DNA from: Curtobacterium sp. MCSS17_008
Lineage (GTDB): Bacteria; Actinomycetota; Actinomycetes; Actinomycetales; Microbacteriaceae
Reading direction: 5' to 3'
Assembly: GCF_003234185.1 (NCBI RefSeq)
Contig: NZ_QKSM01000005.1
Span: forward strand, 124,001-188,000
DNA length: 64,000 nt
Below, one piece after another: positions 33,829 to 35,847 of this stretch; position 1 is the stretch's first letter; every line of letters starts with the position of its first letter. The notes beneath the pieces were generated by a model. The model ran no database searches. It saw only the letters and a program-made list of their open reading frames with translations, and was not told the DNA's origin. The position numbers and the translations under genes were made by a program.

Positions 33829-33921
33829 GTCGTTCCCGGCGGGGTCCGCGGAGTCTCCGGCAGGCGCACCGGAGACGCCGTTCGGGACCGATCACAGGCG
33901 GGACAGGGCACGATCGTCAGG

Positions 33922-34899
33922 GTGACTCGTCTCCGTCGTTCCAGGACCAACGGTCGTGGCTACCACCGTGTCCGCAGCGGGAAGGGCTTCTCGTTCCGTG
34001 ACCCGGACGGGCAGACCGTGACGGACAAGGCCGTCCGCCAGCGGCTCGAGGAGCTGGTCATCCCTCCGGCGTGGGACGACGTGTGGATCTCGCCGTACGA
34101 CAACGGCCACATCCTGGCGACGGGCATCGACGGTGCCGGGCGTCGGCAGTACATGTACCACCCGGGCTGGCGCGAGCGGATGGACCGCATCAAGTACGAC
34201 CGGGCCCTCGCCCTCGCCGAGTCGTTGCCGTCCGCGCGGCGCATGGTGACGCAGGACCTCCGTCGGCCCGAGCCGGACCGCCGCCGAGCCCTCGCCGCGG
34301 CCTTCCGGATGCTCGACCAGGGATCGCTCCGGGTCGGCTCCGAGCGCTACGCCACCGAGCACGGCAGCAGGGGGCTCTCGACGCTGCTCTGCGCGCACGC
34401 GCACGTCTCCGGCGACGACATCGAGCTCGACTTCCCGGGCAAGAGCGGGCAGGAGTGGTCGTCCACGATCCACGACCACGACCTGGCGCGCGTGATCGCC
34501 GGGATGAAGCGGCGTGGACCGAACGCGCGGCTGCTCTCCTTCCGGGCGGAGCGGGGCGCCGAGTGGGAGCCGCTCGCCGCCGAGGACATCAACGAGTACG
34601 TCAAGGAGCGCGCGGGCGACGAGTTCACCGCGAAGGACTTCCGGACCCTGCACGGCACCGTGGCGGCGGCGGTGGACCTGGCGAAGACCGGGCCCCAGTC
34701 GTCGCAGGCGAAGCGGAAGAAGGCGGTGTCGCACGCCGTGAAGGCCGCGAGCGAGGAGCTCGGCAACACCCCGACGGTGTGCCGGCAGAGCTACATCGAC
34801 CCGCGACTGCTCGACGCCTACGACCACGGTGAGACGATCGATCCGGACCGACTGCACGCGGCGGAGTCCGAGGTACGCGCCCTGCTCTACCGGCAGTGA
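33922..34899 (+). CDS. Type IB DNA topoisomerase (bacterial/poxvirus-like)
   Basis: A 325-residue enzyme that relaxes supercoils by a 3'-phosphotyrosine intermediate. The N-terminal beta domain ([16 protein letters not shown]...[35 protein letters not shown]) binds DNA. The catalytic domain has [20 protein letters not shown] (first Arg), the FPGKSGQEW loop with the catalytic Lys, [12 protein letters not shown] (second Arg and His region), and [14 protein letters not shown] with the nucleophilic Tyr. All catalytic positions appear present. Start GTG 33922; no strong ribosome binding site. These enzymes are an optional addition to gyrase in actinobacteria. It stands between the tuf terminator and the DarT-like gene. 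Confidence 0.88.
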
Positions 34900-34935: not shown

Positions 34936-35796
34936 GTGCCCGACCACCCCCACCCGGGCACGGAAGGACCCCTCCCAGTCGTGACCGACGAGTGCATCCA
35001 CGGTTTCCCCACCGAGCTCTGCGACATCTGCTCCCCCCGTCAGGCAGAACTGCCTGCGGCCCCCTCCACGCCGACGCCCCGTCGGACCCGCATCACCACC
35101 GACCTGCGCTCCACCCCCGCCCCGACGAGGGGTTCCTCGTCCCTGCGGACCCCGGCAGCGCCCGAGCTGCCCGAACCCCGCGTCTTCGCCTCGCTGCGGG
35201 CCCACCACGCCACCCACGTCGACAACCTGGCATCGATCGTCGCCGAGGGCGCGATCCTCGCCGCCGACACGGCCACGCCGACCGTCGACGTCAGCTCGGC
35301 CGAGACCCGTGCGGCGCGCGCCGAGGCCCCTGCTCCCGACGGTGGTCCGGTCTCCGGGCACGTCGCCTTCACGCTGTCGCCGGACGCGACGCGTTGGGAC
35401 GAACTGCGCCGGGGCGCCGAGGGCCCGCGCTGGTCCGACGCGGCCCGCCGGACCCGCGCCACCGAGTACGTCGTGCTCGTCGTCCCCGTGTCGGCGTTCG
35501 GGGCGTCGGTCATCGTCGCCGACCAGGACGCCGAAGCCGACGACGTGCGCTTCGCCGTCGGCCCCGAGGCCGCGACGAACCTCATCCGGCGAACGGACTT
35601 CACCGACCCCGAGATGCACGGCCTCGAGCTGCTCGCCGGGCCCCGCGTGCCGTTCTCGTCCGTGGCCGTCATCGGTGTCGCGAACGACCGCGTTCGCCAG
35701 CAGGTCAAGGCGCTCCTCGCCGAGCACCGCGGGCACGCTCCGCGCGTGGCGGTGTTCCCGCCCTGGTTCGTCCCGCCCGTGGTCGACGCCGAGTAG
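34936..35796 (+). CDS. DarT-like ADP-ribosyltransferase-fold protein with N-terminal zinc-binding motif
   Basis: A 286-residue protein. A short zinc-knuckle-like motif, C20-x-H22-x6-C29-x2-C32, is followed by a disordered Pro/Thr-rich linker (35-80) and a domain of about 190 residues. That domain reads like DarT (DUF4433): [16 protein letters not shown] (90-105) matches the NAD-binding HxTHxxNLxxI signature. [16 protein letters not shown] corresponds to the segment before the substrate loop, and [20 protein letters not shown] (229-248) places a Glu at 231 where DarT has its catalytic Glu. DarT enzymes ADP-ribosylate thymidine in single-stranded DNA and are paired with the DarG macrodomain antitoxin; no macrodomain gene is adjacent. 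A start at GTG 34981, giving MTDECIHGF, is also possible. Activity is inferred. Confidence 0.65.
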
Positions 35797-35814: not shown

Positions 35815-35847
35815 GCGCACCCTCCCGACCACGTCGGGAGGGTGCGC
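35815..35847 (+). terminator. Terminator after the DarT-like gene
   Basis: GCGCACCCTCCCGAC pairs perfectly (15 base pairs) with GTCGGGAGGGTGCGC around a 3-base loop, 18 bases past the stop. Confidence 0.75.

Follow-up and report, generated by a model that had tools for sequence, protein, structure and literature searches.

A gene in the window (the whole 64,000-nucleotide stretch of Curtobacterium DNA that we analysed) encodes a DarT-type ADP-ribosyltransferase (ART) domain behind an N-terminal four-ligand motif that is predicted to bind zinc. Judging from sequence, this protein, here called zinc-DarT, is on balance probably a DarT derivative, domesticated and zinc-tethered, that uses NAD+ as before and acts on an acceptor other than the thymidine of DarT2, which suggests that a toxin fold has become an everyday resident enzyme aimed at another target. 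By current descriptions, DarT enzymes are toxins restrained by paired hydrolases. A clade that combines the NAD grip and the catalytic pair with an altered acceptor pocket, that has no partner and that belongs to the core of its genus would be a naturally occurring example of a domesticated toxin. It allows tests of which residues set toxic modifiers apart from tolerated ones, and it might point to nucleic-acid or protein ADP-ribosylation as a housekeeping process in Microbacteriaceae. In the literature searched, which held few subscription journals and no bioRxiv, we found no account of a DarT clade that bears zinc or lacks an antitoxin, nor of housekeeping ADP-ribosylation in this family.

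Gene, DarT domain and predicted zinc module

The host is a plant-associated soil bacterium with a genome of 3.25 Mb (G000, 99.99% complete) that holds the window on contig C32, and the closest relatives at the locus are from Curtobacterium, with up to 93% identity. An earlier note, made from the letters of the window, had described a reading frame at 34936–35796 with a GTG start at 34936. The frame is open and both protein strings quoted there are present in the window, but the GTG at 34981 (V-T-D-E-C-I-H-G-F) is the more likely start, because the Frigoribacterium loci, C. ammoniigenes (L050) and locus L042 align only from that valine; the exception is L057, a metagenome-assembled genome labelled only Actinomycetota, whose alignment begins at residue 6. 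The peptide GTEGP, found upstream of this valine in Curtobacterium, reads GGAAGGA at the DNA level and resembles a ribosome-binding site. With the start moved, the glutamate numbered E231 in the earlier note becomes E216. The parts of the protein are as follows.

34981–35796, forward strand: zinc-DarT coding sequence, 271 residues, from the more likely GTG start to a TAG stop (GTG 34936 in the earlier note)
34993–35031, forward strand: codons of C5-x-H7-x6-C14-x2-C17, the predicted zinc site (model pLDDT 87–90 for residues 1–20)
35038–35196, forward strand: low-complexity linker rich in Pro and Arg, residues 20–72, probably disordered (block pLDDT down to 49)
35197–35769, forward strand: DarT-type ADP-ribosyltransferase domain, residues 73–263, with H76, T78, H79, N82, R113, W139, D183 and E216

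The DarT kinship that had been read from a few aligned segments proved to be far beyond chance. The Pfam family DarT (PF14487) matches with 44.3 bits against a cut-off of 22.5 (E 2.1e-11), PADLOC labels the protein DarT (E 5.1e-14), and Thermus DarT (7omv) is matched at an E-value of 2.2e-5 with the single sequence and 5.9e-18 with the family profile. A missing ADP-ribosyltransferase fold had been named there as grounds for giving up the DarT reading; the window protein is instead predicted to adopt the fold of the DarT domain family (PF14487). The NCBIfam equivalog toxin_DarT, with a cut-off of 150 bits, scores it at 40. DarT1 (the DarT-NADAR toxin; E. coli C7, 8baq) is farther from zinc-DarT in fold than DarT2 is. 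The KptA/Tpt1 RNA 2'-phosphotransferases match the window protein much more weakly and have a different catalytic set, H-H-h (PMC9967889, in excerpt). The ART part shows a dN/dS of 0.11–0.13 against the five nearest relatives compared and 0.22–0.28 against four others, with dN below dS in 9 of 9 comparisons.

The C-x-H-x6-C-x2-C motif reported in the earlier note is present, and its four spaced ligands are conserved. E4, C5, H7, G8, C14, C17 and P19 are invariant in a set of 64 members whose rows were picked with the motif; as a less biased measure, the profile match begins at position 1–4 in 126 of 127 family genomes that carry the gene, and the remaining carrier (G236) has a divergent copy (L188, G236:C1) that still reads C-x-H-x6-C-x2-C. 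L188 also holds a further C-x2-C pair in the long stretch between its zinc motif and its ART core. The linker between the zinc end and the ART domain varies in length from 25 to 81 residues, and its net charge among the 64 members has a median of +7 and a range of +2 to +11. Four N-terminal pieces of 22–30 residues, which are very short queries, gave no Pfam match.

The zinc module also occurs apart from DarT. Two unrelated short proteins start with it, L181 (G212:C5), which has no Pfam match, and L185 (G285:C78; E 2.8e-6), from a distant genome of the same phylum; a third, L186 (G378:C16; E 0.006), has a weaker match in its interior. In its own genome, zinc-DarT is the only protein that the zinc-module profile matches. 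From this pattern of occurrence, the four-ligand C-x-H-G-type module looks like a small reusable adaptor. In the genus g19, the protein occurs as short versions (148 residues at L146:5001–5447 in G018, and L180 in G099) in which the zinc motif and the linker are joined to the C-terminal end of the ART domain and the NAD-binding half is missing.

Inheritance, surroundings and the search for an antidote

Zinc-DarT was found in 65 of 66 Curtobacterium genomes and in all 62 of those with a completeness of 90% or more and a contamination of 5% or less. Across Microbacteriaceae, it is present in at least 127 of 249 genomes and at least 44 of 85 genera, counts that may be low because ten candidates were scored per genome; the 122 family genomes with no match indicate that the protein is not indispensable everywhere. 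With eight candidates scored per genome in the order sample and six in the phylum sample, which may likewise lower the counts, at least 12 of 297 genomes of the order match, two of them outside the family and short of the zinc end, and at least 13 of 396 genomes of the phylum match, ten of them outside the family at an E-value of 7.4e-12 or weaker and starting at profile position 28 or later. Over 54 loci that share the Curtobacterium/Frigoribacterium type of neighbourhood, the pairwise divergence of zinc-DarT tracks that of topoisomerase IB and of L3 (r 0.92 each; the pairs are not independent). In a maximum-likelihood tree, the 64 members are split by a 100/100 branch from 35 ordinary DarTs (28 from IMG/VR, six actinobacterial and Thermus), with a bootstrap that is not fully settled and a letter make-up that differs between rows. 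By these comparisons, zinc-DarT is one vertically inherited clade and not a stray toxin.

We also considered a mobile origin and set it aside: there was no match at E 1e-3 in 72,556 plasmid records or in 50,697 phage records, none in IMG/VR to the two peptide patterns of the clade, and none in PHROGs.

Two features flank the gene in the window.

33916–34899, forward strand: bacterial DNA topoisomerase IB, the upstream neighbour, which ends 81 bases before the zinc-DarT coding sequence (start chosen by us)
35815–35847, forward strand: perfect 15-bp hairpin, terminator-like, with no T run, 18 bases after the stop codon (found by folding)

The neighbours given in the earlier note are as described, with topoisomerase IB upstream (Pfam Topoisom_I, E 6.9e-30) and S10 and L3, read by eye, downstream. 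In the sufficiently long Curtobacterium loci examined, zinc-DarT sits between topoisomerase IB and S10, and among all loci examined topoisomerase IB adjoins it only in Curtobacterium, Frigoribacterium, g35 and g5. The hairpin stands between zinc-DarT and the long leader of the S10 operon; scans for promoters and for T-run terminators around the gene found nothing. In L011, a complete genome record (CP121450.1), both zinc-DarT, in its zinc end, and topoisomerase IB contain frame breaks, which are probably sequencing errors.

A conserved operon partner was sought over 45 loci, most with flanks of about 5 kb (3.9 kb in L001), some of which repeat a genus or a genome and two of which (L056 and L123) are apparently one place; none is general, and we claim no functional link. 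The commonest other neighbours, named by eye, are an SNF2/SWIM-type helicase (seven loci) and a RecB-like nuclease-helicase (four loci). The former lies near zinc-DarT on the opposite strand in seven genera (L113, L122, L126, L129, L133, L136 and L141) and the latter in four (L113, L114, L118 and L131), with L113 in both sets.

The earlier note had seen no macrodomain gene next to zinc-DarT and had proposed a genome search, and we found no match to the macrodomain (PF01661) anywhere in the genome, nor to NADAR (PF08719). The same searches were positive in 8 of 14 (Macro) and 3 of 14 (NADAR) control genomes. Zinc-DarT therefore has neither the adjacent DarG macrodomain that characterizes DarTG2 nor the NADAR partner of DarTG1. 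One gene of the ADP-ribosylglycohydrolase family is present in the genome, near a contig end (G000:C3:170–1054, E 1.7e-62), and a remote reversing enzyme encoded by this single gene is a possibility. The searches for NADAR and ADP_ribosyl_GH covered the host genome, and the search for Macro covered the host genome and the 249 family genomes. Among the family genomes, zinc-DarT and a macrodomain occur together in 49, zinc-DarT alone in 78, a macrodomain alone in 25 and neither in 97. Macrodomains are thus commoner in carriers (49/127) than in non-carriers (25/122), with an odds ratio of 2.4 and a Fisher p of 0.002, uncorrected for kinship, and this excess makes a link to reversal conceivable in some genera. 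However, 78 of the 127 carriers (61%) have no macrodomain match, and in the 49 double carriers the two genes are split between contigs or separated by about 29 kb or more (G009 being the closest; coordinates read by eye).

Conserved and replaced residues

To place residues, we follow the numbering of Thermus DarT and take their roles from excerpts of PMC9967889 and PMC11543638. The profile matched 150 loci (some of them one place twice), of which 135 have the zinc pattern; the other 15 are L011 with its frame breaks, L023 and L041, both truncated by a contig end, and 12 DarT relatives outside the family. The 64 members were obtained by thinning at 80% identity, leaving out L058, L146 and pieces under 200 residues. 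They were compared with 34 ordinary DarTs, comprising 28 from IMG/VR found by the patterns PFYF and DR-RRMA and six of the 12 outside relatives; a few of these are identical, and the label 'ordinary' refers to their sequence. Four residues of the window protein recur in this comparison.

35317–35319, forward strand: R113, aligned with the catalytic R51 of Thermus DarT, present in 64/64 members and 34/34 ordinary DarTs
35395–35397, forward strand: W139, aligned with L79 of Thermus DarT, the residue after M78
35527–35529, forward strand: D183, aligned with the base-contacting H119 of DarT2 and N104 of DarT1 (PMC11543638, in excerpt)
35626–35628, forward strand: E216, aligned with the catalytic E160, present in 64/64 members

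The positions for NAD binding and catalysis are kept throughout the clade: besides R51 and E160, H13 and H16 are each found in 63 of 64 members, T15 in 62 and N19 in 59. The window protein has the equivalents of the NAD-binding H13, T15 and N19 as well as of the catalytic pair, and the presence of R113 and E216 in all members argues that the NAD chemistry is retained.

The acceptor side is different. The oxocarbenium-stabilising M78 occurs in one of 64 members as against 34 of 34 ordinary DarTs, and the window protein has Arg there. The nicotinamide-stacking Y71 occurs in seven members as against all 34 ordinary DarTs, a contrast inflated by the finding of 28 of the 34 through the PFYF pattern, and is Thr in the window protein. 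Loss of these two DarT2 residues could mean a weak or dead enzyme. The adjacent position 79 is Trp in 64/64 members and in 0/34 ordinary DarTs. By numbering, W139 would occupy the place of F72 of DarT1, which stacks on the nicotinamide (the available part of PMC11543638), and it may take over the stacking of the lost Tyr71 in the same way. The stacking residues F18 and F72 are described as generally dispensable for catalysis by DarT1 (PMC11543638, in excerpt).

At position 119, where DarT2 has a base-contacting His or Asn, 58 of 64 members have Asp (the others being two Glu, two Asn, one Gln and one Tyr), whereas the ordinary DarTs have Asn (15), His (11), Ser (7) or Ala (1) and never Asp (0/34); the pairing of Asp with Asn or His recurs in the HMMER alignments. 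M. tuberculosis DarT has Asn at this position by HMMER alignment yet is reported to modify thymidine (PMC9967889, in excerpt), so residue 119 by itself is no guide to the base that is modified. Between 119 and 160, members have a median of 32 residues, as against 43 in ordinary DarTs. A loss of positive charge with the shorter loop was considered and rejected, as the median net charge of the stretch is -1 in both sets and gives no sign of lost basic DNA contacts.

Alanine at the DarT1 counterparts of M78 (matched by role), H119, R51 and E160 yields an inactive, non-toxic DarT1, according to the accessible text of PMC11543638. Mapped on the clade, two of these four positions are kept (R51 and E160) and two are replaced (M78 and H119). 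Compared with DarT2 (the DarTG2 toxin; Thermus sp. 2.9, 7omv; M. tuberculosis, 7yk3), which has a DarG macrodomain partner, the window protein has none; Y71, M78, the RSPM stretch and H/N119 are replaced; the loop before the catalytic Glu is shorter; and an N-terminal zinc motif, a basic linker and vertical inheritance are added. Compared with DarT1, the genome has no NADAR, the base-contacting Asn (N104) is exchanged for Asp, and the Met (M71, mapped by role) for Arg.

Possible roles of zinc-DarT

We propose that an old DarT without its antitoxin partner, bearing the CHCC motif on a basic flexible linker, has been passed down vertically in Microbacteriaceae. The ART domain would bind NAD+ in the DarT manner through H76, T78 and N82, and with the catalytic pair R113/E216 in place, ADP-ribose transfer most likely persists. 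The acceptor side would have been rebuilt, with Asp183 for His/Asn, Met78 and Tyr71 gone, an invariant Trp139 and a loop about 11 residues shorter, so that neither modification of the DarT2 thymidine motif on single-stranded DNA nor DarT-type toxicity would be expected. The predicted zinc motif and the basic linker most likely guide the protein to a nucleic acid or protein partner, where a specific target would be modified. A place in the genus core, vertical inheritance, the lack of an antidote and the change of two positions that DarT1 needs for DNA-base transfer fit a DarT that has ceased to be a toxin.

The main rival, which we regard as rather unlikely, is a catalytically weak or dead ART that serves as an adaptor binding NAD+/ADP-ribose or nucleic acid, with the zinc end doing the work. 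The short frames of g19 (G018 and G099), which keep the zinc and C-terminal ends without the NAD half, are the best evidence for such an adaptor, and the lack of conservation of Tyr71 and Met78 in the clade and the zinc motif on unrelated short proteins (L181 and L185) point the same way; but R113 and E216 in 64/64 members, with H76 in 63/64 and T78 in 62/64, amount to a retention of the catalytic pair that is unexpected for a pure adaptor. The earlier note had left two options, a tamed chromosomal enzyme with another target, which we favour, and a toxin whose antidote is elsewhere. The latter, a functional DarT-type DNA toxin held by repression or by a distant antidote (an ADP-ribosylglycohydrolase or, in other genera, a macrodomain), would account for the PADLOC label, for the single ADP_ribosyl_GH gene in the same genome and for the commoner macrodomains among carriers. 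We nevertheless consider it improbable, because the genome has no Macro or NADAR match, zinc-DarT is in 62/62 good genomes of the genus, and the clade has other residues at positions where alanine abolishes DarT1 activity; the separation of the two genes in the 49 macrodomain carriers and the low score with the NCBIfam equivalog also speak against it.

Defence genes are usually patchy in distribution, whereas zinc-DarT is present in every good genome of the genus (62/62) and lies between topoisomerase IB and S10 in the sufficiently long Curtobacterium loci, which makes a phage-defence ART that is activated by infection, and autoinhibited and hence antitoxin-free, very unlikely. No known defence system was recognised by eye among 16 recurrent neighbour clusters, although those read by eye as an SNF2-type helicase and a RecB-like nuclease may be parts of one. 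A sensor role for the zinc and linker part is conceivable in such a system, and DarTG is described as protecting against phages (PMC11543638, in excerpt).

For zinc-DarT as a domesticated enzyme, a precedent for a physiological role of DarT comes from M. tuberculosis, where marks made by DarT reportedly regulate replication and transcription, though together with DarG (PMC12170906, in excerpt). More tentatively, the clade might represent a third DarT class: a zinc-tethered ADP-ribosyltransferase, resident and non-toxic, core in one genus and common in Microbacteriaceae, in which the Asp recognises a new base or nucleic-acid target such as guanine or structured RNA; we hold this to be possible but doubtful. 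Were it true, it would amount to a physiological system of nucleic-acid ADP-ribosylation without a toxin-antitoxin pair. SCO6735, a TARG1-like protein of S. coelicolor, is likewise chromosomal and belongs to the ADP-ribose biology of nucleic acids while having no paired DarT (PMC9411070, in excerpt); it is a stand-alone reversal enzyme, a hydrolase, whereas zinc-DarT belongs to the transferase side.
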